Source: Polyangiaceae bacterium
GTDB taxonomy: Bacteria; Myxococcota_A; Polyangia; Polyangiales; Polyangiaceae
Assembly: GCA_025936115.1 (NCBI GenBank)
Contig: JAICTZ010000001.1
Span: 310,001-374,000, forward strand
Direction: 5' to 3'
Length of the DNA: 64,000 nucleotides
In this document: one piece after another, positions 6,117-27,738 of the stretch
Numbering within the stretch: the stretch's first letter is position 1
How the letters are laid out: every line of letters starts with the position of its first letter
Translations under genes and position numbers: made by a program
Notes under the pieces: model-generated
What the model saw: the letters and a program-made list of their open reading frames with translations, nothing else
Told to the model about the DNA's origin: nothing
The model's database searches: none

Positions 6117-7238
6117 TCAGTTGCTCGCGGCGGCCGCGTTGTAGTCGTACACCTTGATCCAATCCACCTGCGCGCTCGTCGGGGCCGAAGTCGACGTGAG
6201 CGCGCCTGCCCAGTCCGCTGAGCTCGAGGCCCAAATCGTGAGCAAGATGGTCTCTGGCAGCTTGAGGAGCCCGATGTTCGCCGTCCACGTCCGCAGGAGC
6301 ACGCCGTCGGCGAAGTACTTCACGCCGGCGGGCGTCCACTCGACGTCGTAAAGGTGGAAATCCGTTTCGGCGTTGAAGCCGAGGTCCACGACCGCGGGAT
6401 CCTGGGTCGGGCTGACGGAGGCCGTGCAGCTCGGGTTCGGAGTGCCCGTGTACACCATCGCATTGAGCTGCGATGAGTTGCTGGTCTTGCCGAGATGTTC
6501 GATGTCGATCTCGTTCCAATCGCAGTTCGGGTACGGAGTGTAGAAGAGCACGAGCCCCGACACGACACCCGACCCGGTCGCGAAGCGCATGCGCGCCGAG
6601 ACTTTGCCGTAGGTGAGCGTCTTCGCAGAGCGCATCTCGACGCCGAGGTACGGCTTTGCTGCGCCACTAGGAGCCGCCGTGAGTGAGATCGTGAGCACGC
6701 CGTCGGCGACGCTCGCGTTCTGTGTCGAGAACGTCGCCTGGTTGCCGTCGAAGGTGAACGTCTGGAGCTGCCAGGCGGAGCTGTCGAGCTTGTCGAAATC
6801 GTCTTGCCACGCGAGCACGAAGGGCTCGTTGGAGCCCGCGCCTGCAGCCCCGCCCGTCGGTCCGGCGCCCGCGCCACCCGGGTTCGCCGGTGTCCCGCCC
6901 GCGCCTGCCGAGCCCATGAACGCGCCGCCACTGCCGGCAACGGGAGGTGACCCTCCGGTTCCCGTACTGCCTGCCGAGCCGTTGTCCCCGCCGGTTCCGG
7001 CCGTCTGCTCCGTGCCGCCCGTACCGCCCGTGGCGCCCGAAGCGGGTGCTCCGGCTCCGCCACCGCCCTGGCCTCCGACCGATGGTGCACCGCCCGCGTC
7101 AGTCTGACCGCTCCCCGCCCCGGACTGCAGCGTCCCAGCGGTACCACCGGTCCGCTCCGGTGTTTCTTTCGGACTCGAGCACGCGCAGAGGGCGAGCACC
7201 GAACACAAATTTGCAAGCGCGTGGACTCTGAACAGCAT
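6117..7238 (-). CDS. Glycoside hydrolase family 16 lipoprotein
   Basis: The 373-residue protein has a signal peptide ending in LALCAC (lipid-accepting Cys20). A Gly/Ala/Thr/Ser linker (about 30-137) leads to a GH16 beta-jelly-roll domain (about 140-370). The family signature is present as NEIDIEHLG: Glu243 is the expected nucleophile, Asp245 the assisting residue and Glu247 the acid/base. GH16 enzymes cut beta-1,3/1,4-glucans and related polysaccharides with retention, so this is probably a surface-tethered laminarinase or licheninase-like enzyme. The exact substrate cannot be assigned. The AraC-family gene diverges from it, which makes that regulator a candidate controller. Confidence 0.92.
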   Translation of the reverse strand: MLFRVHALANLCSVLALCACSSPKETPERTGGTAGTLQSGAGSGQTDAGGAPSVGGQGGGGAGAPASGATGGTGGTEQTAGTGGDNGSAGSTGTGGSPPVAGSGGAFMGSAGAGGTPANPGGAGAGPTGGAAGAGSNEPFVLAWQDDFDKLDSSAWQLQTFTFDGNQATFSTQNASVADGVLTISLTAAPSGAAKPYLGVEMRSAKTLTYGKVSARMRFATGSGVVSGLVLFYTPYPNCDWNEIDIEHLGKTSNSSQLNAMVYTGTPNPSCTASVSPTQDPAVVDLGFNAETDFHLYDVEWTPAGVKYFADGVLLRTWTANIGLLKLPETILLTIWASSSADWAGALTSTSAPTSAQVDWIKVYDYNAAAASN

Positions 7239-15827: not shown

Positions 15828-16648
15828 CCGGCCGGGGCGAGACGCAGCCCGACGCCACGATTTGCGTAACGTGGTGAAAGTCTCGCAAGGTCTGCGTCTA
15901 CGCACCGGATTAGCGCGAAAACCCGCCCGGTGTCCGTTGAATGATCAATCTGTCGGCTCGGCCTCACACGTCTGGCTGACGGTGATCGGCGCGCTGCGGC
16001 GGATCTTCGTGCGCCGCACGTAGGCGCACACGACGTGCACGAGAGGCGCTCCCTTTCGATGTCATGGCCCCGGTGCACCGACATGTGGGAGACGACCGGT
16101 CGGCGTTGCGCAGTGCGGCAGGGGGTCCACCCCAGGGAGAACTCGCTCGGCGAATTCAACAAATCACGGGCTTCTAACATTAGCAGGCAGAGGATCCTCG
16201 CGGTCGCCGGCGAGACCGACCTTGCAGAGCTCGTCCACACGCTCGAAGAACTTGCGACAGCAGCAGCCAGAGCGGCCCTGCGTCGCCCCCGCGGTTCTTT
16301 CGGCTCGTGTTCCACGCCGGGCGAAGTTTTTCAGCGCTGACCCGTGCCTGTGTGCCGCCTGCGCACGCGCTCTGACGGATAAGTCAATTCGCTCTCACTG
16401 CCCACTCAGAGTCGAGCGCGTCAGGCACGCGAGTAGAATATTGGCAATCACCGAGGCTCCGCGATTCTCGTTCTTGGCTCGAACCGCGTGCCGTGGATCC
16501 ATTCGCCGTCGAGCCAGGTCAGAATTTGCCAACCATGCACGAATAGGCGTGGCCGCTGCTGCTCGGGCGGCTCGCGTGCGGGGTGGTGACGACCGGAGCG
16601 CCCAGCGTGCGCTAGGCCGCGTTGGAAGGAATTTGCGGCCGCGTCTGC
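15828..16648. other. Long gene-poor stretch with a possible minus-strand relic
   Basis: More than 800 bases lack an intact gene. On the minus strand at about 16345-16164 an open frame ends in the protein-like KFFERVDELCKVGLAGDRED before a TGA, with coding-like third positions but no plausible start. It could be the C-terminal remnant of a lost gene; I do not recognise the family. No terminal inverted repeats or transposase motifs are visible. Confidence 0.3.
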
Positions 16649-16692
16649 TTGACGCATCGTTGGTCTGCTGACATGATTCAACCGGTTGAATC
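16649..16692 (+). promoter_or_regulatory. Promoter with LacI-type operator (site A)
   Basis: TTGACG (16649-16654), a 17-base spacer and CATGAT (16672-16677) form a sigma-70-like promoter. The perfect 18-bp palindrome GATTCAACCGGTTGAATC at 16675-16692 overlaps the -10 box and the expected start point, the standard position for a repressor site. Three more copies of its CAACCGGTTG core occur at 24352, 25527 and 27665, close to a LacI-family gene. Confidence 0.8.
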
Positions 16693-16717
16693 AGTCGGAA
16701 ATGCGATGGGAGACAGG

Positions 16718-18658
16718 ATGGCCGGCAATTCGAAAGAACAGCTTCGGGCTCGCCTCGGAGCGGTGACGGCGCTCTGTGCGGCACTCGGTGCCTGCAGCGC
16801 GGACGTCCACGGCGACCGGCCCCAGAGCATGGGCTCGGGCGGCATGGCTCCGGCGGCGACAGGTGGAGCTTCGGCCGCGCCTGGGAGCGGCGGGAGCGGC
16901 GCGACGGTTACCGGCCACGGCGGAGCAACGACGACCGGGAGCGGCGGAGTGTCGGCGGGTGGTGGGAGTGTTGCGAGCGGCGGGATGGCGAGCACGAACG
17001 GCGGCTCGGGTACGGACCCCAGCACGTGTACTCCGATCGCGCCGATCACTCGGCGCCTGTGGCGGCTCTCGGTCGAGCAGTACCAAGCGGCGTTGCAAAG
17101 CTTGCTCTCGTTGCCGACCCTCCCGCAGCTCAGCAACCGCGGTGGAGAAGCGCAGTGGGCATTTTTTGGTGACGTGTCGCTCGGGGTCGATGACTCGTTT
17201 CAATACGCGCAGTACGAGCTCGTCGACAGCTTGTTACCGAGCCTGCCGGCCTCGCTCACGACTTGCAATGCAGGCGAGGCCTCGACGGCCTGCGCCACAC
17301 GCATCGCCAAGGACTTTGGAGCGAAGGCCTTCCGGCGACCGCTGACGAACGACGAGATCGCGGCGCTCGTGACGAACCCGGGACAGCCTGCGAGCGGAAG
17401 CGCGGACGCCGTGTCGCCTGCGCCGTTCGTCGCCGGGGGAACGGACACGAAGACCGGGCTGAAGCTGATGATCGAGGCCATCCTCCTTTCACCATCCTTC
17501 ACCTACAGGACGGAGCTCGGCCCGAACACGCTGACGGCGGATGCGAGCGGCAATTACCCCGACACGACCCTCACGCCTTACGAAGTCGCGACCCAACTCG
17601 GCTTTACGCTCTTGGGCTCGGGACCGGACGCCGAGCTCGAAGCCGCCGCGGCGGACACTTCCGAGCATGGGCTCGGCTCGATGCAGGGCATCGAAGCGCA
17701 GGTCGATCGCTTACTCGGCCTGGCGAGCGTCCAGCAGCACCTCACGGCCGTCGTCGCCGGTTGGTTCAACATCGGTCAGCTGTTTCTGAAGACGCACGAC
17801 GCGTCGTTTCTGTCCGCGCTGCCGAGCACGGATCAAATGGATCAGACCGGGGTCCAAGGCGACCTTTATGCTTCGGCGCAGCTCCTGATCAAAAACCAGC
17901 TCTGGACTCAATCGGGGAAAATAACCGACCTGTTGACTACCCAAACGGGCTTTTTCAATTCGCGGCTCGCAGCGCTCTATCCCGAAGTCACGTATCCGAA
18001 CGGAGCGCCCACTTCACTCACGACGTTCGTCCCGGGCACCTGGCCCGCGTCCGAGGATCGCATCGGCCTGCTGTCGGATCCGAGCTACTTCTGGGCGCAA
18101 TCGGATCCAGCCGCCAACTCCATCGTGAAGCGCGGGAAAGCGATCCACGACGACGTGATTTGCGACGATCCACTGCCGCCGCCCGTGGACCTCAGTACGC
18201 CCATGGCCCAGGCCGTGATCGCGAAGGGTGACAGCGAGGTCACCAAGTCCGACGCGCGCTTGTCCACGCCACCTTGCCAGGGGTGCCATACGCAAATGGA
18301 CTCCTACTCGCGCATCCTCCAGCACTTCGGCCCTGTCGGCGAATATCGCACGCTCGACGAGGCCGGACGCGCCATCGACACTGCCTTCACGTTCTCGGAC
18401 CCGTCGCCGCTCGCCCCCCAAACCATCCCGGGGCCGAAGGAGCTCGCCCAAGCGTTGATCACGAGCGGGCACTTGAACGGCTGCGCCGTTCAGAAGATGG
18501 CGAGCTACTTCATCGGCTCGATGATTCAGACCTACGACACGTGTGAGATCGATACGCTTCGCGAAAAGTTCGCGCAGACCGACGGGACGCTCACCTCGCT
18601 GTTCAAGACCGTCGTCGTCGCCGATCTCTTCCGCGCCAGGAGTGGAGGTAAGAAGTAA
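16718..18658 (+). CDS. DUF1592/DUF1588-type lipoprotein with CxxCH motif
   Basis: The ATG at 16718 follows GGGAGACAGG, and earlier in-frame starts would lie in the operator. The 646-residue product has a lipobox (ALGAC, Cys26) and a Gly-rich linker. It then carries, in order, features of DUF1587 (RRLWRLSVEQYQAALQSLL), DUF1595 (FRRPLTNDEIAAL), DUF1592 (LLSPSFTYRTE), DUF1588 (IVKRGKAIHDDVICDDPLPP, with CQGCH at 520-524) and DUF1585 (HLNGCAVQKMASYFIGSM). These families co-occur in planctomycetes and myxobacteria; a haem at CxxCH is predicted but unproven. It overlaps the DUF1552 gene by one base and heads the LacI-controlled operon. Its biochemical role is unknown. Confidence 0.9.
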   Translation: MAGNSKEQLRARLGAVTALCAALGACSADVHGDRPQSMGSGGMAPAATGGASAAPGSGGSGATVTGHGGATTTGSGGVSAGGGSVASGGMASTNGGSGTDPSTCTPIAPITRRLWRLSVEQYQAALQSLLSLPTLPQLSNRGGEAQWAFFGDVSLGVDDSFQYAQYELVDSLLPSLPASLTTCNAGEASTACATRIAKDFGAKAFRRPLTNDEIAALVTNPGQPASGSADAVSPAPFVAGGTDTKTGLKLMIEAILLSPSFTYRTELGPNTLTADASGNYPDTTLTPYEVATQLGFTLLGSGPDAELEAAAADTSEHGLGSMQGIEAQVDRLLGLASVQQHLTAVVAGWFNIGQLFLKTHDASFLSALPSTDQMDQTGVQGDLYASAQLLIKNQLWTQSGKITDLLTTQTGFFNSRLAALYPEVTYPNGAPTSLTTFVPGTWPASEDRIGLLSDPSYFWAQSDPAANSIVKRGKAIHDDVICDDPLPPPVDLSTPMAQAVIAKGDSEVTKSDARLSTPPCQGCHTQMDSYSRILQHFGPVGEYRTLDEAGRAIDTAFTFSDPSPLAPQTIPGPKELAQALITSGHLNGCAVQKMASYFIGSMIQTYDTCEIDTLREKFAQTDGTLTSLFKTVVVADLFRARSGGKK

Positions 18659-20256
18659 TGTCATACAAAGTTTCGCGACGGGCGCTGCTCGGGGCGGCGG
18701 GTGGCTCGGCGACACTGCTCCTGCCACTCCTCCGCAGCATCGAGGCCCGCGCGGCCGGCGCTGCGGCTCCGCTACGCCTGCTCATCATTCATCATCCGCT
18801 CGGCACGGCGCCCGGGGGCACGAACTGGGCCCCCAACGCGTCGAGCACCACGACGAACTTCACGCTGCCGATGGAGAGCGCGCCGTTCGCGCCGCTGCAG
18901 TCGAAGATGGTGATGATCGACGGGCTCAATCTGGTGACCGCCACCACCTCGAAATCGACCACGAACAGCGGGCACAACACGCACGAAGGCGGCATGGTCG
19001 CGATGATGACCGGGGTGCCGACCCTCGGCGTCTACGGGCAGCAGGACCATTGTGCCGGCGGCGCGTCGATCGACCAATTGCTGCTCGCGCAGTCGCCGTT
19101 GCTCGGCGGAGCGGCGTCCACGACCAAGACGCCCTTCGGCCACCTGGCGCTCGCGGCGGACATTCGTTCCGATCGCGACGAGGTGGCGCCGCGCGTCTTG
19201 TCTTACAACGCGCCGGTCCAGGCCAGCTCGATCCAACTGTCGCGTCAGCCCATCTATCCGGAAACTCAACCGCTCAACACCTTCAACCGCATCTTCGGCG
19301 GCGCACTACCCCAGGGCATGGACACCTCCGCCTTGCTCGCGCAAAAGCTGAGCGTCGTGGACTTCATGCGCGGGGATCTCGCGCGCATGAGCAAGCTCGT
19401 GCCTGCCAGTGAGAAGGACCGCCTGGCTGCGCACACGGTAGCCATCCAGAGCCTCGAAGCCAGCCTGAGGCAGTCGTACGGCACGACGGTTCAGACCTCG
19501 TCCTGCACCAAGCCTGCCACACCACCGACCTACAACACGGTCGGGGAAACGGGCGGCGGCACGATCGGCGGCATCTCGTCGAAGAGCAGCAACTTGAGTG
19601 GTGAGGACTACTACCCGACCACGGCGAATTGCACGCCCAGCACCGAAACGAGCTGCCATGCGCACCAGGACGTGGCCTTGAATCAGCTGCGCTTGATCAA
19701 AGCCGCCTTCGCCTGCGACCTCGTGCGAGTGGCGACGTTCATGTACTCGGCCGGCACCAACTGGGTCGTGTTCCCCTCGACGTTCCAGGGCGCCACGATC
19801 AGTTCGGCAGCGCTCGGCAACAACGGGCAATCGACGCCGCATCACCCGCCAAGCCACGTCGACGACGCGCCGACGCACGCCTGGCTCAATCAGATCAACG
19901 TCTTCTACTCGACGCTGACCAGCCAGATCCTGCAGGAGTTTGCGAGCACGCCCGACGTCGACGGCAACACGCTGCTCGACAATACCATCGTCGTCTACAT
20001 CACCGAAGTGGCGCGGGCGTGGGATCACGACCAACGGAACATGCCGCTCATCGTATTCGGCGGTAAGAACACCGGGGTAAAGGGCGGGACGTTCTTGAAG
20101 GTGACTGGCGGTTCACTCCAGAGTCAAAATGGCGGGACCGGGAACCGGCCGTTCAACGACTTCTGGCTCGCGCTCGCTCCGCAGTTCGGCGTCAACTGGC
20201 CCAGCTTGGGCGACAAGACTCAATACACGGGTCCTCTGACCGGCATTTTTGCGTGA
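18658..20256 (+). CDS. DUF1552 protein with Tat signal
   Basis: The 532-residue protein belongs to the DUF1552 family, the standard partner of DUF1592/DUF1588 proteins. A twin-arginine signal (SRRALLGAAGGSATLLLPLL) indicates folded export, often with a cofactor. Conserved-looking stretches include LLIIHHPLGTAPGG, TNSGHNTHEGGMVAMMTG, TPHHPPSHVDD and IVVYITEVARAWDHDQRNMPLIVFGG. The His/Asp-rich pattern and late GNRPFNDFWLAL resemble sulfatase-like DUF1501 proteins, suggesting metal binding. That comparison is inference. GGAGGT lies eight bases before the ATG, which overlaps the upstream TAA (TAATG), so the two are translationally coupled. Confidence 0.9.
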   Translation: MSYKVSRRALLGAAGGSATLLLPLLRSIEARAAGAAAPLRLLIIHHPLGTAPGGTNWAPNASSTTTNFTLPMESAPFAPLQSKMVMIDGLNLVTATTSKSTTNSGHNTHEGGMVAMMTGVPTLGVYGQQDHCAGGASIDQLLLAQSPLLGGAASTTKTPFGHLALAADIRSDRDEVAPRVLSYNAPVQASSIQLSRQPIYPETQPLNTFNRIFGGALPQGMDTSALLAQKLSVVDFMRGDLARMSKLVPASEKDRLAAHTVAIQSLEASLRQSYGTTVQTSSCTKPATPPTYNTVGETGGGTIGGISSKSSNLSGEDYYPTTANCTPSTETSCHAHQDVALNQLRLIKAAFACDLVRVATFMYSAGTNWVVFPSTFQGATISSAALGNNGQSTPHHPPSHVDDAPTHAWLNQINVFYSTLTSQILQEFASTPDVDGNTLLDNTIVVYITEVARAWDHDQRNMPLIVFGGKNTGVKGGTFLKVTGGSLQSQNGGTGNRPFNDFWLALAPQFGVNWPSLGDKTQYTGPLTGIFA

Positions 20257-20434
20257 GCAGAGACGACTCCTGGTCGAGCGGGCACGGGTGCTCCGCCCTC
20301 GCGTGCGGCACGGGTTCGCGCGCGGCGCGGCGGTCGTCAGCGTCGCAGCCGTCTTTCCCTCTATGCAGGGCGCGGGCCAGTAATGCTTTGCAAGAGGGCC
20401 AATCGCCGGTAATGGACATACAAGGATACACAGC

Positions 20435-21664
20435 ATGAAATCTTCGCGCCTCATCTCGACTGGAGCCCTCTGTCTGGCGGCATTTGCCTGCTCGACGGCG
20501 GCAGACCCACCGCCGCCCGCGTCCGCGGGGAGCAGCGGTTCGGGCGGTAGCGTCGGTGGCAGCGAAACCGCCGCGGGCGGCATGGTTTCTCCGAGCTCCG
20601 GCGGCTCGCTGAGTAGCGGCGGCGGCGCAGGGACGGGCGGCACGACGACGACCGGTGGAACCGGCGGCGCGGGCGGCTCAGGCGGCAGCCAAGCGGGCTC
20701 GGGCGGCAGCGGCGGCACCGGCGCGAGCGGCGGCAGCGGGGCGAGCGGCGGCACAGGCGGCACGACTGGCGGCAGCTCCGGCACCGGAGGAGGCGGCGGC
20801 ACTCCGGCCGGCGGCCACGGCGGCATGGGAATGAGCGGTGGGAACGGCGTCACCGGTGGAGCGGGCAGCGGCGCGGCTCCTGCGGCGGGCGCCGGCGGCA
20901 TGGGCGCTGGCGGCGGCAGCGGCGGCGCGGCACCGGTCGACACGACGCTCGTCGGCACTTTGGACGGCGCATTGATCGAGTTTGCGTGCGGTAACACCGG
21001 CAGCGGCTACGACTGCGCGCAGCCGAGTACGGCGAAGTGCACGAACGCGAGCGGCAGCACACCACCGGGCGCCATCACGCCCTCGAACGGCGCGGCCACT
21101 TCGTGGAAGATTGGCGGAGCCGCGGGCACGGTCTACGACGTCACCTTCCGCTTGCGCGGCATCGTGGAGGTCACCTCCTACGTCGGAGGCACTCGCGATG
21201 CAGGCAGCACGTCGATTTTGACGAGTCAAGATCTGTTCCAACAGGGTGGAACGGCACAGACCAGCGGCGGACCGAGCTTCGACTACAACACGTACGAGCT
21301 CGACGTGACGCCTGCCGTCACCGGCGCTGCCAACACGTACTATTTGAACTCCGTTACGACGGCCGAAAATCCGCACGCGAGCAATAGCCCGACCCAACAT
21401 CTGACGTTCGCGATCGACTACACGAAGACGATCAAGGTGCAGGGCGGCGGCACGATTTCGCTCAAGGTCACCGACTCGAACTGCACCGAAGTGCAAAACT
21501 GCGGACCCACTTCGGGCAATACATGTGCGGCGCCGAGGACCGTGTCCCTGACGGGTGCCATGCCTGCTGCTCCTGATAACTTCGTGCAGCCGTTCCAGCA
21601 GCCGTCCGGAAGGTACGGGCAGTGGATCTTCTTCGACGTCACCAAGGTCGCGGTCGCGCAGTGA
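20435..21664 (+). CDS. Gly-rich lipoprotein of the LacI-controlled operon
   Basis: The 409-residue protein has a signal peptide (AFACS, Cys19). A very long Gly/Ser/Thr-rich linker covers about residues 28-170, and a C-terminal domain of about 240 residues follows. The domain is predicted mainly beta (VYDVTFRLRGIVEVTSYVGGTR, YELDVTPAV, FAIDYTKTIKVQGGGTISLKVTDSNCTEVQNCG) and carries four or more cysteines. It may be a carbohydrate-binding-like beta sandwich, but I recognise no family. AAGGA lies eight bases upstream of the ATG. It follows the DUF1552 gene after 178 bases without an obvious terminator and overlaps the porin gene by four bases, so it is probably in the same transcript. Confidence 0.85.
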   Translation: MKSSRLISTGALCLAAFACSTAADPPPPASAGSSGSGGSVGGSETAAGGMVSPSSGGSLSSGGGAGTGGTTTTGGTGGAGGSGGSQAGSGGSGGTGASGGSGASGGTGGTTGGSSGTGGGGGTPAGGHGGMGMSGGNGVTGGAGSGAAPAAGAGGMGAGGGSGGAAPVDTTLVGTLDGALIEFACGNTGSGYDCAQPSTAKCTNASGSTPPGAITPSNGAATSWKIGGAAGTVYDVTFRLRGIVEVTSYVGGTRDAGSTSILTSQDLFQQGGTAQTSGGPSFDYNTYELDVTPAVTGAANTYYLNSVTTAENPHASNSPTQHLTFAIDYTKTIKVQGGGTISLKVTDSNCTEVQNCGPTSGNTCAAPRTVSLTGAMPAAPDNFVQPFQQPSGRYGQWIFFDVTKVAVAQ

Positions 21665-22953
21665 TCCAGGCACGCGTCCGGGTCGCCGCGCTCGGCTTCA
21701 CCTTGGCGCTCTCTCTTCTCTCCGGTCGAGCGCGCGCCGAGACGACGCTGGTCGCGCCGGGAGAAGGCTGGGAGGTCTACACGGGCGGTCGCGTCGGCGC
21801 GTTCGTCGAAGTGCTGCAGGGCGACGGCGTGCCGGCCACGCCGTCCGGTGTGACGCTCGCGAACGAAGGCGTGACCGTCCTTGCCGATCCCGGCCCGGAC
21901 GGCACGCCCAACGCAGGTCACGTGCTCGCCTCCCGCGTGCGCAGCGGCTTCCTCGGCAATATCCTCACCATCGGCCTGCGCCGAAAGCTCTTCGCCAGTT
22001 CTACGCTGTCCGCCCAAATATCCATTTGGGGCACCGCCGAGACGGATTCCGGACGTACGTTTCTGAAGAACCTGCCGGACGAGCGTGAGGGCTACCTGCA
22101 GCTCGAGGGACCGGCGGGCAGATTGCTCGTGGGGCGCGCGCTCTCGCTGTTTTCGCGCGGCGCAACCGAGATCGATTTCTTGTACGGCCACGGCTACGCG
22201 GTCGGCGCGCCGAACGGATTCTCCGACTTCGGGCCGTCCGGCGGTCACATCGGCTACGGTGTCTTGGCGAGCGTGTTCGCGGCGGGCGTGGCGTATGCGA
22301 CGCCCTCATTTTACGGGCTAATGCTGACGGCCGGTTATTACGATCCCGGCAACCTCGTCGGCCAATACTATGGCCGCACGAAGCTCGGCCGTCCCGAGGC
22401 CGAGGCGACCTTCGATACCAAACTCGGGACGCTCGGGAAACTTCACGTCTTCGTCAACGGCGCGTATCAGAAGCTCTACGCCACGCAAAAGAACGACAGC
22501 ACGTCCGTGTACGGCGCGGGAGCGGGCGCCCGCATCGAGCTCGGCCCGTTTCACCTGGGAGTGGCGGCGCACACGGGCAACGGGCTCGGCGTCAACTACT
22601 TTCTCAACCAGACCGACAGCATCGTCAATCACCAATCCTTCGAGCTGCGCTGGTTCGACGGCGCCTACGTGCAGACGCAAACCGTCGTCGGTAAGTTCGA
22701 CTTCAACGCGGGCATCGGGATCACGCGCGCGCACCAGCTCACTGCCGACATCGATCCCAAGTATTTCAATGCGCAGGGGCTGCCACCCTACAGCTACCTG
22801 AAATCACAGTTCGGCATCTCTGGAGTCGTCGTCTATCACTTCACGGACAACCTACATGCCTCCCTCGACTACTTTCGTTCCGACGTGAAATGGTGGCTCG
22901 GGCAACAGCAGGTGCTCAATTCATACAACGCCGGCATGATGGTGACGTGGTAG
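21661..22953 (+). CDS. Outer-membrane beta-barrel (porin-like) protein
   Basis: The GTG at 21661 overlaps the preceding TGA (GTGA), giving a 430-residue protein with a cleavable signal peptide (LALSLLSGRARAE). The body alternates hydrophobic and polar residues in many short strands (GRVGAFVEVLQG, LSAQISIWGTAETD, LHVFVNGAYQKLYATQ, FNAGIGITRAHQL). It ends in MVTW, the terminal aromatic typical of outer-membrane barrels inserted by BamA. ARSLFSRGATEIDFLYGHGYAVG resembles trimeric-porin constriction loops, but no substrate class can be assigned. As last gene of the DUF1592/DUF1552/lipoprotein operon it may provide passage for the compound handled by that system. Confidence 0.85.
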   Translation: MIQARVRVAALGFTLALSLLSGRARAETTLVAPGEGWEVYTGGRVGAFVEVLQGDGVPATPSGVTLANEGVTVLADPGPDGTPNAGHVLASRVRSGFLGNILTIGLRRKLFASSTLSAQISIWGTAETDSGRTFLKNLPDEREGYLQLEGPAGRLLVGRALSLFSRGATEIDFLYGHGYAVGAPNGFSDFGPSGGHIGYGVLASVFAAGVAYATPSFYGLMLTAGYYDPGNLVGQYYGRTKLGRPEAEATFDTKLGTLGKLHVFVNGAYQKLYATQKNDSTSVYGAGAGARIELGPFHLGVAAHTGNGLGVNYFLNQTDSIVNHQSFELRWFDGAYVQTQTVVGKFDFNAGIGITRAHQLTADIDPKYFNAQGLPPYSYLKSQFGISGVVVYHFTDNLHASLDYFRSDVKWWLGQQQVLNSYNAGMMVTW

Positions 22954-23001
22954 TCGCGTAGGTCAGCGCAGGTGGACAGACGCGTGAGTCCGCAGTGCCG
23001 C

Positions 23002-24258
23002 TCACGGACAGCTGACGGGCGTCTTGGGGTTCGGGAGCACGAACGTCGGGTTCTGCGCCGCCGACGCCGCCGACAGCGTGCCGGCATGCGCGGTGTGGCC
23101 GGCCGTAGTCACGGAGTCCGCCGCGGCCGTGCCCGACGACTCGTTGAACTGCCAATAACCGACTAGCCCTGTTTCGGTGCCCGTCAGTGTCTTGCTCATG
23201 CTGCCTGCGATGTCGCTGGCCGCGCGCGCGACGTTCCAGACCCGAAACTCGTCGATCAGGCCGGCGAAGTAGGCATTTTCCCCGGGGTAGCCGCCGATGG
23301 TGAGCGGCGAAGTGCCCGTCTTGAGCACCTTCTGACTGCTGCTCGCCGGGGCGGCCATGGTGGCGCGCAGGACGCCGTTCACATAAGCCTGAACCGCGGT
23401 CCCGTTCCAGGTCATGGCGAAGTGGACCCATTGCGGATTGGTGGTGGTCACGCCGCTCGACTGATTGTCGTTGTCGAAGATAGCGTTCGTGAACGGGTCG
23501 ATGGTGCCCGTCGTGCCCTGCTTCGCGCCGAAATCCAGGCCGAAACCGTCAGCGTCGCGAGCCGAGGGGTACGGTCCGTAGAAGAACATCGTGTTCGTGT
23601 TGGCGTTCCAGTCCGAGTCCTGAGTGTAGGCCCAGTACTCGATGGTCCGGTCCGAGCTGGCGATCGGTAGATCGCTCATCAAGTCGATGGCTACGTGCGC
23701 GGCGGCGCTGTCGCTCGAGCTGCCCGTTCCGTTCTTCGCGAGCGAGAGCGCATGGCCCGCGCAGTCCATCGCACCGCCTGCGCCACCACCCATGCCTGCA
23801 GTCCCCATACCGCCCATACCGCCCATCCCGGCCGTGCCCGTAGCGCCCATACCCGCGGTGCCTTTGCCCCCCATGCCCGCCATGCTCACGGCGCTGCCGC
23901 CCATACCGCCGCCGCCTTTGCCCCCGACATTCCCACCGCCGCTCATGCCGCCGCCGTTCCCCGCGCCTGCTCCCGCGGAGCCAGCCATGTTCGCGCCGGC
24001 GCTGCCGGCGATTGCCGCTGCCCCGCCTCCACCGCTGCCCACCTTTCCCGCCGTTCCGCCCGCCGTGCCACCGGAGGCGAGCATCCCGCCACTGCCGGAC
24101 GCCCCACCTGCACCCACGAGACCGGATCCTGCGATACCGCTCGGACTGCCGGCGGAACCCGGTTCAGCCCCGCCACTCGAGCAGGCGGCCAACGGCACGA
24201 CGCTCCACAGCGCGAGGCCGGTGAGGCGCACACGCTGGGTGGTCAGTGACCGCTTCAT
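23002..24258 (-). CDS. LamG/concanavalin-like lipoprotein
   Basis: I use the ATG at 24258 (MKRSLTTQ), giving a standard lipoprotein signal (PLAAC, Cys26); upstream in-frame starts would add 12 or 32 basic residues. A Gly/Met/Ala-rich linker (about 30-195) is followed by a LamG-type jelly roll (about 205-415). The family shows in TIEYWAYTQ, WVHFAMTWNGTAVQAYVNGVL, LTIGGYPGENAYFAGLIDEFRVWNVARAASDI and LVGYWQFNESSGT. Such domains bind glycans or mediate adhesion and are not usually catalytic. Its promoter region holds LacI operator site B overlapping a perfect -35 box TTGACA, so it belongs to the predicted regulon. Confidence 0.88.
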   Translation of the reverse strand: MKRSLTTQRVRLTGLALWSVVPLAACSSGGAEPGSAGSPSGIAGSGLVGAGGASGSGGMLASGGTAGGTAGKVGSGGGGAAAIAGSAGANMAGSAGAGAGNGGGMSGGGNVGGKGGGGMGGSAVSMAGMGGKGTAGMGATGTAGMGGMGGMGTAGMGGGAGGAMDCAGHALSLAKNGTGSSSDSAAAHVAIDLMSDLPIASSDRTIEYWAYTQDSDWNANTNTMFFYGPYPSARDADGFGLDFGAKQGTTGTIDPFTNAIFDNDNQSSGVTTTNPQWVHFAMTWNGTAVQAYVNGVLRATMAAPASSSQKVLKTGTSPLTIGGYPGENAYFAGLIDEFRVWNVARAASDIAGSMSKTLTGTETGLVGYWQFNESSGTAAADSVTTAGHTAHAGTLSAASAAQNPTFVLPNPKTPVSCP

Positions 24259-24350
24259 TTTCGGACGTCGCTTCGTGGTGTGCACACGGGTCATGAGATC
24301 GCCGACCCTCGGGGCGGCGTTCACCAAAAAACACCATCGATGACCGGATG

Positions 24351-24362
24351 TCAACCGGTTGA
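24351..24362 (-). promoter_or_regulatory. LacI-type operator (site B)
   Basis: TCAACCGGTTGA is a perfect 12-bp palindrome. On the minus strand it runs directly into TTGACA (24356-24351), a consensus -35 box. The LamG gene starts 93 bases further on. A bound repressor would cover the -35. It lies in the gap between the end of the LacI gene and the LamG gene. Confidence 0.75.
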
Positions 24363-24396
24363 ATTCTGTAGCAGCAGCAGCTTCGCGCGAGCGCGA

Positions 24397-25491
24397 TCAG
24401 CTCGTCGAACCTCGGCGGAGGACGACGGGCACCGATGGGTCGCCGATTTCGGCGGCGTTGTTCTTGATGAGCCCCCAAATCGCCATGAACGCTTTTTCCG
24501 CCAGCGCTTCGGAGTCGAACAGTGCCGTGGTCAAGCCCACGAGCGCGCCGTACTCGTCACCGTCGAAGCCGGCGAGCTTTACGTCCGTCGGAATCGAAAT
24601 CCCGAGCTCGTGGAGACGGTGCCAAAGCTGCATGGCACCGCGGTCGTTCGAGCAGAAAATTGCCGCCCCCTTGCGATCGGCAATTCGCTTGAGATGTTCG
24701 TCCGTCACGCGGTCGAGCGCGACCCTTTCGAGGGTCGCCGGTGAGGCATGTTCGGCCCAGGCCTGCTGAGTGCCATGCCAGCGCTCGATGTGTCCCAAAT
24801 GCTCGGCCACGACCTGGACGAACGTCAGGTGCTCGGCGCCTCGCGCGGCAAGGTGCCGCACGAGCATGCTCGCGCCAGCGTGATTTTCGATGCGCAGGCT
24901 GTACCCTGGATAGCTCGCGTAGCTCGGATGATGGGGATCGAGCACGATGGACGGCCGCGCATAAGTCGCCGAAAGCCGAGCGGTCTCCTCACTGGGGACG
25001 TCACCCCATACCAAGAGGCCGTCGGCGTGGAGCGGCCGGAGCGGTTCGTGCGACACTTCGGCGAGCTGCTCGCTTGCGATCAGATTCAACGTGAGGCCGC
25101 GGCGCGCAGCGAGCTTCGCGAGCGCCTGGGTCGTGTGGACGACCGGGGGGTGCACCAGGCAATCGAACGTGCTCGGCATGACGAGGCCGATGGCGTGCCC
25201 CAGCGTACCCGCGAGCTGCTTGGCCGCCCAGTTCGGCGAGTAGTTGTGCTCGGCCGCGGCGGCGCGAACGCGTGCGCGCGTCGCTTCGGCGACTCGCGGG
25301 CTGTCGCGCAGCGCGAGCGAAACGCTCGACTTGTCCATCCCGAGCACACGCGCGAGGTCGGCAATCGTCACACGCTTACCGAGCGGCTGTGTCCACGGCG
25401 GCGGGAAGACCCGGTTCGCGCCGTCGCGAGACTTTCGCTCTCGCTCGAGGACGTCGTCAGCGCCGGCGGCTTTTCTGATCTCGCTACTCAT
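24397..25491 (-). CDS. LacI-family transcriptional regulator
   Basis: The 364-residue protein has the LacI layout. A helix-turn-helix VTIADLARVLGMDKSSVSLAL covers residues 41-61, followed by helix 3 RVAEATRARVRAAA and the hinge PNWAAKQLAG with minor-groove Leu93. A periplasmic-binding-protein-like effector domain follows (HAIGLVMPSTFD, ADGLLVWGDVP, IENHAGASMLVRHLAARGAEHLTFV, AIFCSNDRGAMQLWHRL, DVKLAGFDGDEYGAL). A 40-residue N-terminal extension before the helix-turn-helix is unusual. Effectors of this family are mostly sugars. Operator site C lies 35 bases upstream of its start, so autoregulation is likely. It is the obvious candidate to bind all four CAACCGGTTG sites. Confidence 0.93.
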   Translation of the reverse strand: MSSEIRKAAGADDVLERERKSRDGANRVFPPPWTQPLGKRVTIADLARVLGMDKSSVSLALRDSPRVAEATRARVRAAAAEHNYSPNWAAKQLAGTLGHAIGLVMPSTFDCLVHPPVVHTTQALAKLAARRGLTLNLIASEQLAEVSHEPLRPLHADGLLVWGDVPSEETARLSATYARPSIVLDPHHPSYASYPGYSLRIENHAGASMLVRHLAARGAEHLTFVQVVAEHLGHIERWHGTQQAWAEHASPATLERVALDRVTDEHLKRIADRKGAAIFCSNDRGAMQLWHRLHELGISIPTDVKLAGFDGDEYGALVGLTTALFDSEALAEKAFMAIWGLIKNNAAEIGDPSVPVVLRRGSTS

Positions 25492-25496
25492 TTCCC

Positions 25497-25540
25497 TTGA
25501 CGCAATCCCTGTGCAATAGGCTAAAGCAACCGGTTGAATC
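25497..25540. promoter_or_regulatory. LacI-type operator (site C) in divergent promoter region
   Basis: The CAACCGGTTG core occupies 25527-25536 with right arm GAATC as in site A. It lies 35 bases upstream of the LacI gene start and 197 bases upstream of the epimerase gene in the other direction. A weak plus-strand promoter (TTGACG at 25497-25502, then GCTAAA at 25520-25525) would start transcription inside the operator, so one site could control both genes. Confidence 0.7.
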
Positions 25541-25696
25541 GGTGGTTCGCCGACGCGAGGGCCCCGCGCAGCACCTGATCGTCAGCCGGCAAAGTCACCC
25601 TCCTTTTATACCCTGAGCCGCTCGAAAGTGGGGCTCAGGCCCAAAAATCGCGACCGCGCGCCCGTTGCCACTCGTTTCTTCGTCTCCCGGGCGTGC

Positions 25697-25720
25697 ACCT
25701 CGAGGGGGTCTCCTCGAGGT
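25697..25720. promoter_or_regulatory. Inverted repeat ACCTCGAG-N8-CTCGAGGT before epimerase gene
   Basis: A perfect 8-bp inverted repeat with an 8-base spacer ends 16 bases before the epimerase ATG, just ahead of its Shine-Dalgarno. In RNA it would form a stable hairpin next to the ribosome-binding site. In DNA it could be an operator. Confidence 0.5.
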
Positions 25721-25736
25721 ACTGAAGGAAGGCATC

Positions 25737-26759
25737 ATGCAGAGGGCACAAGCCGACAAGCTTCGCACCACGGATCAAAAGCTCATTTTGGTGACCGGCG
25801 CCACCGGGAAGGTGGGGCAGCACTTCATCCAGCGCTTGCTCGCGGACCCGGACCGGCGTGAGTACCGCGTGCGCGCCCTGTGCCACCACCGGCTGCTCGA
25901 GGCGAGCGACCGCTTGGAAGTCATGCGCGGGTCGATGGTCGATCATCAAAGTGTGCTCTCCGCGGTGGCAGGCGCAAGCCACGTGCTTCACCTCGCAACC
26001 TCGAAGGAAACGCCGGAGACGATCATGGACGTCGCCGTCAAGGGCATGTTCTGGCTGCTCGAGGCGTGCCGCGAGAGCTCCGACTTCGAGCAGTTCGTCC
26101 TCGTAGGTGGTGACGCAGGCATGGGTCACTTCTTTTACCCGCACCCCGTGCCCGTGACCGAAACTCAGAAGCACAGCGCCTATCCGGGATGTTACGCGCT
26201 TTCCAAAGTGCTCGAGGAGGTGATGCTCGAGCAGTACTTCATTCAGTATCAGCTCAACGGCTGCTGCCTGCGGGCGCCCTGGATCATGGAGAAGGACGAC
26301 TTCAAGTACCAGCTCTCGTTCGGGGAGGATGTATTCGGCGGTCCGCGCTGGTGCGATCTGGTGGGCCCCGAGCGCGCACGGCAGTACCGCGAGTCGAACG
26401 CCGTACCCATCATGCTCGACGCGCACGGCGTGCCTCTGAAGCGAAACTTCGTGCACGTTGACGATCTGGTTTCGGCAATTCTGTGCGCGCTCGATCATCC
26501 GCGCGCGGCGGGACAGACGTTCAACGTCTGCATGGATGAACCGGTCGACTACGCGGAGCTCGCGCGCTACCTGGCCGAGACGCGCGGCATCCCGAGTGTG
26601 CCGGTCCCGACCCCGTACTTTTCTACCTGGCTCGACAACGCCAAAGCCAAGTTCGTGCTTGGCTTTCGCCCGCGCTTCGACCTTGCGCGCATGGCCGAGG
26701 CCGCCTTCACGTACCTACGCGCCGCCGATGACCCGCGCGTCGTCTGGTATCCCGGCTGA
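25737..26759 (+). CDS. NAD-dependent epimerase/dehydratase (extended SDR)
   Basis: The ATG at 25737 has GAAGGAAGG five bases upstream and gives 340 residues; an in-frame start at 25665 would run through the inverted repeat. The Rossmann motif is TGATGKVG (20-27), the catalytic pair Tyr153-x3-Lys157 (CYALSK), and VLVGGDAGMG stands at the Ser/Thr position. The C-terminal half has the substrate-domain pattern NFVHVDDLVSAILCALDHP and GQTFNVCMDEPVDYAELARYL. It is probably a nucleotide-sugar or sugar/lactone-modifying enzyme. Its divergence from the LacI gene, with the operator between them, suggests it processes the compound sensed by LacI. The substrate remains unknown. Confidence 0.9.
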   Translation: MQRAQADKLRTTDQKLILVTGATGKVGQHFIQRLLADPDRREYRVRALCHHRLLEASDRLEVMRGSMVDHQSVLSAVAGASHVLHLATSKETPETIMDVAVKGMFWLLEACRESSDFEQFVLVGGDAGMGHFFYPHPVPVTETQKHSAYPGCYALSKVLEEVMLEQYFIQYQLNGCCLRAPWIMEKDDFKYQLSFGEDVFGGPRWCDLVGPERARQYRESNAVPIMLDAHGVPLKRNFVHVDDLVSAILCALDHPRAAGQTFNVCMDEPVDYAELARYLAETRGIPSVPVPTPYFSTWLDNAKAKFVLGFRPRFDLARMAEAAFTYLRAADDPRVVWYPG

Positions 26760-26781
26760 GCAGGTATCCGTCGTCGTTGCG

Positions 26782-27453
26782 CTACTTCACGTCGCACGCT
26801 TCGCGCGCCGAGTCCTCTTGAAGCGAGCCGCGGCCGCGGCGAGCAAGTTCCGCTTTGGCCTCCGAGACGCGGCCGAGCCCGCACAGGGCTTGAACACGCG
26901 CGGCGATGCGCTCCTGCGTCAGCGTGCCGCGAGGGAACGTGCGCGCGTGCTCGTCGAGTAGCTTGAGCGCGCTCGCAAAGTGGCGCGCGTGAAGTTCCGT
27001 CGCCGCGCGCGAGAGGATCGCTACTTCCGCACCGAGTAGATCCGTGCGGCGTGAGCTCGTGGTGCGGGCGTTGCTCGAATCGCTCGGCGGAGCGGCCGCG
27101 GTGATTCCTTCTACGGCTGGCGTTAGCGGCGCGATGGGCGCGCTCGGCGTGGCCGGCGTCGCCACGGGCGCGCTCGCTCGCGGCGGCAGGACGACGGGCG
27201 AAGGCGAAGTGTTTCGAAACAGCGCGACGCTCGTGATCACGCCCGCGACTGCGAGCCCAACTGCGACAGCCGAGAGCACGGGCGAACCGACCGCAGCTTT
27301 CGGTACGCCCGGAGGCGGCGGAGACGAGCCGGGACCGGTCGCGAGGCGCGATCTGAGCGCTGCGAAGACGCGACTGCGGTCGTCGAGCGTCGGCCGCAAG
27401 ACGGTGCGCCCGGCACGCAAGAGCGCGCGCGCCTCTGGGCCGAGCTCCGCCAT
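26782..27453 (-). CDS. Single-pass membrane protein, anti-sigma-factor-like
   Basis: The 223-residue product starts at ATG 27453 (AAGGCGG upstream; a TTG six bases earlier is possible). The cytoplasmic N-terminus LGPEARALLRAG...RSRVFAALRSRL resembles the short helical segment of myxobacterial proteins encoded beside ECF sigma factors. One transmembrane helix follows (about 60-79), then a Pro/Ala linker and a C-terminal TPR-like region (ARHFASALKLLDEHARTFPRG, ARVQALCGLGRVSEAKAELAR). No sigma-factor gene adjoins it here, which is unusual for this protein type. It is read convergently with the epimerase gene. An anti-sigma or scaffold role is inference. Confidence 0.75.
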   Translation of the reverse strand: MAELGPEARALLRAGRTVLRPTLDDRSRVFAALRSRLATGPGSSPPPPGVPKAAVGSPVLSAVAVGLAVAGVITSVALFRNTSPSPVVLPPRASAPVATPATPSAPIAPLTPAVEGITAAAPPSDSSNARTTSSRRTDLLGAEVAILSRAATELHARHFASALKLLDEHARTFPRGTLTQERIAARVQALCGLGRVSEAKAELARRGRGSLQEDSAREACDVK

Positions 27454-27664
27454 CGTCAACCAACCGCCTTCATCGTGGGTAGAGCTCGGACATCGAAACG
27501 CAAACCATGGACGCCTTCGCGCGAATCCGGTGTGGATCGAGCGCTCGCTGCTTCATCGTTCGTACCCAAGGCAGTGGGTTTCAGGCTGAGGCTCTAGCGA
27601 AATCCAAGTCCGAGCCAAGCATGGACGAGACCGCGACGGGGCGGAGGTTTTTCACACCCCATGA

Positions 27665-27674
27665 CAACCGGTTG
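27665..27674. promoter_or_regulatory. LacI-type operator (site D)
   Basis: A fourth CAACCGGTTG core, flanked ACAACCGGTTGAAT, lies in the 285-base gap between the TPR gene stop and the start of the membrane protein at 27453, about 210 bases upstream of the latter. No promoter aligns convincingly in either direction. It could be an auxiliary site for looping or mark an unannotated transcript. Confidence 0.6.
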
Positions 27675-27738
27675 AATATGGGCGTGCCGTGTCGGCGGAC
27701 CGCTTCGAGCGCTCGAAGTCAGGCGCGCGGCGGGTGCG

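Follow-up and report, generated by a model that had tools for sequence, protein, structure and literature searches.

The 64,000-nucleotide stretch of a Polyangiaceae genome analysed in this study (hereafter the window; positions 310001-374000 of contig C5) very probably encodes a local repressor of the LacI family together with its own operators. We consider such a regulon to be the best explanation for four copies of the ten-base palindrome CAACCGGTTG, referred to as sites A to D, which are grouped around a LacI-family gene (lacI) and to which its product is predicted to bind. The sites, their clustering, their repeated spacing from promoter-like boxes, their conservation before orthologous genes in a related genome and their co-occurrence with lacI are directly visible in the sequences. 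A four-site LacI regulon had been proposed in a sequence-only reading of the window, and its outline is supported by conservation, except that site D has neither an evident promoter nor an evident target.

Clustering of the palindrome

The core CAACCGGTTG is present exactly at 16679, 24352, 25527 and 27665, as that reading had listed, and the whole window contains no further copy at up to one mismatch. In the complete assembly (G000; 8,061,748 bases in 83 contigs, 93.27% complete) it occurs seven times, with the four copies in an 11-kb span inside the window and one each on contigs C7, C29 and C60. At the rate of these other three copies, an 11-kb span would be expected to hold 0.004. Among the 1024 ten-base palindromes, four reach at least four copies in the window and only CAACCGGTTG has at least three intergenic ones. 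Chance clustering had been judged unlikely, and the ten-mer proved neither common genome-wide nor free of a positional bias.

The claim that all of the sites are intergenic depends on one gene start. Intergenic sequence makes up 12.6% of the window by our own codon-usage gene caller, from which the gene starts were also taken; with the starts 16718 and 24258 set by hand, all four sites fall into this fraction (p ~2.5e-4), while the caller alone, without the hand-set start, gives three of four. For site A to be intergenic, the DUF1592 gene has to begin at the ATG at 16718; the caller chose 16673, which would place the site within the gene, and the mechanical open reading frame begins at 16622. 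In the related genome G003, the orthologous gene was called 32 bp after its site, the distance in the window being 29 bp. The sites and their promoter elements are as follows (no strand is assigned to the operators).

16649..16677, plus strand: putative promoter of the DUF1592 operon (TTGACG, 17-nt spacer, CATGAT), a sigma-70-like pattern whose spacing to the operator recurs
16674..16693: site A, perfect 20-bp palindrome TGATTCAACCGGTTGAATCA, predicted operator over the -10 and transcription start
24347..24366: site B, predicted operator, one half-site of which lies over TTGACA (24349-24354, minus strand); it faces the LamG gene at a distance of 93 bp
25497..25536, plus strand: composite promoter-operator at site C (TTGACG, 24 nt, core), directed at the epimerase gene 200 bp further on
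25522..25541: site C, predicted operator between lacI and the epimerase gene; the equivalent gap in G003 also has a core
27660..27679: site D, fourth copy of the core

The regulator and its co-occurrence with the palindrome

The gene that lies amid the sites does encode a LacI-family protein, both domains of which exceed their Pfam cut-offs.

24397..25491, minus strand: LacI-family regulator with a helix-turn-helix domain (residues 42-87; PF00356, 40.6 bits against a cut-off of 27) and an effector domain, Peripla_BP_3 (residues 211-363; PF13377, 56.9 bits against 26.5)

The palindrome is of the class expected for this family, i.e., even in length with a central CG, and sites B and C flank the gene. 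The best NCBIfam model was RbsR (NF047341, 89.9 bits against a cut-off of 382) and the GalR model (NF008002) reached 52.5 bits against 557; by NCBIfam the protein is an orthologue of neither. The LacI of E. coli has a C-terminal helix through which it forms tetramers. In the protein from the window, the match to the effector domain extends as far as residue 363 of 364, which seems to leave no room for such a helix, and for this reason looping between site A and the group of sites B, C and D was not assumed. The predicted structure of this protein (pLDDT 54) was too poor to use.

Orthologues of this LacI (E <= 1e-20) were found in four of 97 genomes, all from one genus: G000 itself, G003 (68% identity), G006 (65%) and G005 (64%). 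None was found in the congeners G001, G002, G004 and G007, three of which are only 84-88% complete. A scan of the GTDB species genomes returned 18 loci, which were the same three relatives and 15 distant ones that were 22-52% identical in the best segment. In each of these four genomes, lacI is adjoined by the core or, in G005 and G006, by CAAGCGGTTG, which differs from it in one base, and the recognition-helix stretch MDKSSVSLALRDSP is invariant across the four proteins. G003 has a core between lacI and the divergent epimerase gene, like site C, and a second one 32 bp after lacI, like site B, which lies 35 bp after lacI in the window. In G005 and G006, CTAGTCAAGCGGTTGACTAG lies 224 bp before lacI. 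Central-CG palindromes thus stand near lacI in each relative: two in G003 and one before lacI in both G005 and G006, the latter with one mismatched core pair.

Away from lacI, G003 carries a core before the orthologous DUF1592-DUF1552 operon, at the distance of 32 bp given above, and another before the orthologous lipoprotein-porin pair (63% and 64% identical). Its epimerase orthologue is 73% identical, and the next gene, 27 bp further on, scores as galactokinase (TIGR00131, 351 bits; cut-off, 227). Contig C64 has a fifth site, about 743 bp ahead of a lipoprotein gene. Past this gene there is an aldose 1-epimerase gene on the opposite strand; the aldose 1-epimerase, which is cut by the end of the stretch, exceeds the Pfam cut-off and reaches 183 of the 398 bits required by the galM model. 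G003 has 13 exact cores, of which these five were assigned; of the remaining eight, six lie inside called genes and two are not near a gene start. Epimerases of the window type (E <= 1e-40) occur in the same four of the eight genomes of the genus as this LacI.

The palindrome could instead be the operator of another regulator, either a second LacI-family protein or an unrelated palindrome-binding factor, its nearness to lacI being incidental. The LacI-domain cut-off is indeed exceeded by two genes of this genome, that of the window and another on contig C31 (the search for the second covered this genome). However, no exact core was present in the 15 kb examined around the C31 gene, the core or its variant adjoins lacI in four of four genomes with this gene, and the composite promoters described below are absent from the four congeners without it. 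We therefore regard another regulator as quite improbable.

Promoter spacing and composition of the arms

Site A had been described as overlapping the -10 of a good promoter; it is the 5' arm of the operator, not the ten-base core, that overlaps the -10 hexamer (16672-16677). This promoter is the only sigma-70-like match between 16400 and 28200, but, because shuffled sequence gives 0.8 matches, taken alone it means little. Its -35-to-operator spacing, however, recurs at site C and in G003, G005 and G006. TTGAC begins exactly 30 nt before the core (start to start) at sites A and C and before the epimerase and DUF1592 genes of G003, and 29 nt before it at lacI of G005 and G006; each unit is directed toward its named gene. 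Searching the eight genomes of the genus with TTGACN{24,25}CAANCGNTTG gave seven matches, the six predicted promoters and an unrelated one in G006, although the pattern was drawn up with the spacing already known, so that the six are not independent predictions. The informative part of this search is how little else matches: the four genomes lacking this LacI gave no match, and neither did the reversed control in any of the eight.

The eight genomes contain 40 exact cores, and the two five-base arms have 6-9 A/T of 10 in the 11 assigned sites (nine exact and the two variants from G005 and G006) and 1-5 of 10 in the 31 other exact copies, a separation that is partly circular as the surroundings of the three G003 sites not adjoining lacI were already known when these were assigned. 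When the two pairs of orthologous promoters are compared, the core agrees at 10/10 positions and TTGACN at 5/6 and 6/6, while the 60 bases upstream agree at 15/60 and 22/60. This bears on a disfavoured explanation in which the copies arose by chance or belong to a dispersed palindromic element and have no regulatory function. In its favour, the four congeners without this LacI have one to three cores each, eight in total, six of which are inside called genes, and G016, a genome of the same family (10.4 Mb), holds 22 copies where the reversed control has 27, numbers that are far above those of the other searched genomes and look compositional. Nevertheless, the orthologous promoters share only the core, the TTGAC box and nearby bases, and the eight congener copies have 1-5 A/T in their arms and no -35 box at the spacing. 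We consider a non-functional origin to be highly improbable.

At a second type of site, the operator half-site itself forms TTGAC. Site B, the site that follows lacI in G003 and the C64 site of G003 are of this type and stand 93, 642 and about 743 bp from the lipoprotein genes that they face. Site B does overlap a perfect -35 before the LamG gene, as had been noted; its weak point is the -10 candidate, TTTTTT, 17 nt beyond TTGACA, which is a poor hexamer when read by eye. Operators that form the -35 box, together with the poor -10 at site B, might suggest that the protein activates rather than represses at some sites. In the case of sites A and C, however, as in that of their G003 counterparts, the operator sits at the start of transcription, a position from which activation is not expected; we therefore hold activation to be unlikely and repression to be the probable mode. 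Site C lies between the LacI and epimerase genes, as claimed, and its composite promoter is directed at the epimerase in both the window and G003; repression of lacI itself at this site may be suggested from the overlap.

Copies set aside and points that weigh against a regulon

The three exact copies outside the window were not assigned. The C29 core lies within a called gene, has 5/10 A/T in its arms and no TTGAC at the spacing, and was treated as background; it lies in a phage-like region (L009) with terminase-like and integrase-like open reading frames, recognised by eye. The C7 core is inside a gene as called, but would fall between this gene and an SGNH hydrolase gene if the start of the first-named gene is at 6594; its arms have 3/10 A/T and it has no spaced TTGAC. 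The least certain rejection is the C60 core (C60:141755; L010 6756), 46 bp before a von Willebrand factor A (VWA) lipoprotein gene, also with 3/10 A/T and no spaced TTGAC. This gene is convergent to the closest paralogous DUF1592-DUF1552 pair, an odd coincidence of place for a core with background-like arms. The only other relative of the window DUF1552 protein in G000 at E <= 1e-100 is likewise on C60 (63% identity). Two intergenic cores 6.3 kb apart were also seen on C66 of G007 (L097 2857 and 9126), a genome that is 86% complete and in which no LacI orthologue was found.

Allowing up to three mismatches, ATTCAACCGGTTGAAT matched nine places in the own genome (control, one): the four sites of the window and five others. 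These five, four within called genes and one (C71) intergenic, were rejected with scores of at most 11.0 compared with 25.9-30.7 for the assigned sites, on a matrix built from the assigned sites themselves. AGTCAASCGGTTGACT at up to three mismatches gave 128 forward matches in the eight genomes and 114 for the control and was not used for assignment. This shows that weak operators cannot be separated from chance by mismatch searches.

In addition to the pattern framed after the fact and the circularity of the arms, several observations weigh against the regulon as proposed. At site D, the 80 nt upstream of the core contain no TTGAC, whichever orientation is taken, and no convincing gene start follows: among called starts within its reach, the nearest (27453) is 211 bp off; the genes beside this site have no relative (E <= 1e-5) among the 12 compared loci. 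The arms are palindromic at only one of five positions at site C and none of five at site D. Two of the three sites that overlap a -35, both in G003, are far from the genes they face (the 642 and 743 bp above), and the G003 porin site has no TTGAC at the recurring distance. Relatives of the porin (E <= 1e-20) are present in six of the eight genomes, two of which (G001 and G007) are without this LacI, and so the porin is not tied to the regulator. The own-genome galactokinase is on another contig, with no scored site in the 17 kb examined. In G006, CAACCGTTTG, with GGT/ACT arms, stands just after a DUF1592-DUF1552 pair on C49 (L152 5422) and scores 17.7, between the background and the assigned sites; it is the only additional scored site in the G006 loci examined and was left unassigned. 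Finally, the operator of lacI is the only one assignable in G005 and G006: their epimerase gene and the neighbouring lipoprotein-porin pair have no site over the matrix score threshold, and no DUF1552 orthologue at E <= 1e-100 was found in either genome. It would follow that the regulon in these two species has shrunk to lacI or uses sites beyond detection here.

Some neighbouring genes in these two genomes are worth mentioning. In G005, a gene for a sugar-type periplasmic binding protein (Peripla_BP_4; C320, L150 13442-15000) and an ABC-ATPase-like open reading frame, recognised by eye, lie near the epimerase-porin cluster, and the G006 locus L151 has a similar binding-protein gene at its edge. 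A DUF1552-DUF1592 pair in reversed order, 23-24% identical to that of the window, follows lacI of G005 at about 4 kb (C280; L067 16983-19936).

Genes of the predicted regulon

The genes around the four sites, other than lacI, were classified using Pfam.

16718..18658, plus strand: secreted lipoprotein-like protein with PSD5 (DUF1595), PSD4 (DUF1592), PSCyt3 (DUF1588) and PSD2 (DUF1585)
18658..20256, plus strand: DUF1552 (HXXSHH) protein with a twin-arginine-like start (N-terminal SRR)
20435..21664, plus strand: glycine/serine-rich lipoprotein without a Pfam family, relatives of which adjoin the porin in G003, G005 and G006
21661..22953, plus strand: outer-membrane porin (Porin_4; scanned as 21622-22953)
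23002..24258, minus strand: LamG (Laminin_G_3) lipoprotein, scanned from 24354; its start (24258) was placed manually according to the signal peptide
25737..26759, plus strand: NAD-dependent epimerase/dehydratase family protein
26782-27459, minus strand: protein without a Pfam family

The DUF1592 protein has one CXXCH motif and is 77% identical to its G003 orthologue. The DUF1552 protein (81% identical in G003) has a stretch, HPPSHV, that resembles the motif from which the family takes its name, HXXSHH, and a sequence search of solved structures with it found no relative. The lipoprotein at 20435..21664 is probably part of the site A operon, from which it is separated by a gap of 178 bp. A structure predicted for the lipoprotein domain (pLDDT 34) was too poor to use. 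No NCBIfam model exceeded its cut-off for the epimerase.

Proposed mechanism and inducer

In the proposed mechanism, a LacI dimer would bind the CAACCGGTTG palindrome, with CG at its centre and A/T-rich arms. At sites A and C, where the core begins 30 nt after the start of the -35 and covers the -10/start region, the bound protein would block RNA polymerase, and at site B one half-site would cover the -35 box. A sugar or a sugar derivative, perhaps related to galactose, would take LacI off the DNA and so induce three units: the DUF1592-DUF1552-lipoprotein-porin genes, the LamG lipoprotein gene and the epimerase gene (with the galactokinase gene in G003). Site D may have a role in this regulon as well.

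A galactose-like inducer is possible because the galactokinase gene follows the epimerase gene in G003, and we regard it as slightly favoured. An inducer such as another hexose, a uronic acid or an oligosaccharide would also be compatible with the LacI regulon, and we give it a little less than an even chance: the own-genome galactokinase is without a scored site, the regulator scores best, if far under the cut-off, with the RbsR model, and the epimerase is assigned by no NCBIfam model. Against it stand the G003 galactokinase and the aldose 1-epimerase gene at the C64 locus, the latter on the opposite strand and under the galM cut-off.

Relation to known systems

According to the passages of Ravcheev et al. 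(2014; PMC4052901) considered here, the operators of LacI-family factors are even palindromes with a central CG in 1173 of 1303 cases. The system in the window resembles the local sugar regulons described in those passages in its palindrome, in a regulator encoded beside its targets and in a sugar-enzyme gene among these targets, and differs from them in having PSD-cytochrome and HXXSHH genes as targets. Neither Myxococc nor Deltaproteobacteria occurs as a word in the main text of that article (a form with the Greek letter would be missed). GalR, GanR, LacI and EbgR are named there as regulators of galactose or galactosides, which the regulator of the window would resemble if it responds to a galactoside; in G003, galactokinase is probably among the targets. 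GalR is listed among the factors with odd-length palindromes in the same source, whereas the palindrome in the window is even, and by NCBIfam the two regulators are not orthologous.

In the relevant passage of a study of planctomycete-specific cytochrome genes (PMC5615132), PSCyt genes are described as having no known function, a role in carbohydrate metabolism being suggested, not shown, for Verrucomicrobia. A PSCyt3-type gene stands beside a gene of unknown family both there and here; no regulator is named in that passage, whereas here the pair lies under a predicted LacI-type operator. Full-text searches, which leave most subscription journals outside, on DUF1592/DUF1552, HXXSHH/PSD1/PSCyt and myxobacterial LacI regulons returned no such regulon as judged by titles and the beginnings of abstracts. 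A search for LacI with CAACCGGTTG gave only an unrelated match, and one for LacI with galactokinase, epimerase and Polyangia gave none on myxobacteria by title among the matches listed.

The circuit itself is ordinary; less usual is a PSD-cytochrome/HXXSHH pair under a sugar-type regulator. It is conceivable, although rather doubtful, that the DUF1592-DUF1552 pair is a sugar-inducible exported module for galactoside use, in which a c-type-cytochrome-like lipoprotein and a Tat-exported partner oxidise or process a galactose-containing substrate that enters via the co-regulated porin and lipoprotein. G000 has 23 DUF1552 (HXXSHH) genes, a large set for a family of no known function, and, if this were true, the 22 others would represent the same module for other substrates. 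The circuit ties a DUF1592-DUF1552 pair of no known function to a sugar-type regulator, to a porin and, in a related species, to galactokinase, and this link gives a testable clue to what the PSD-cytochrome/HXXSHH pairs do.

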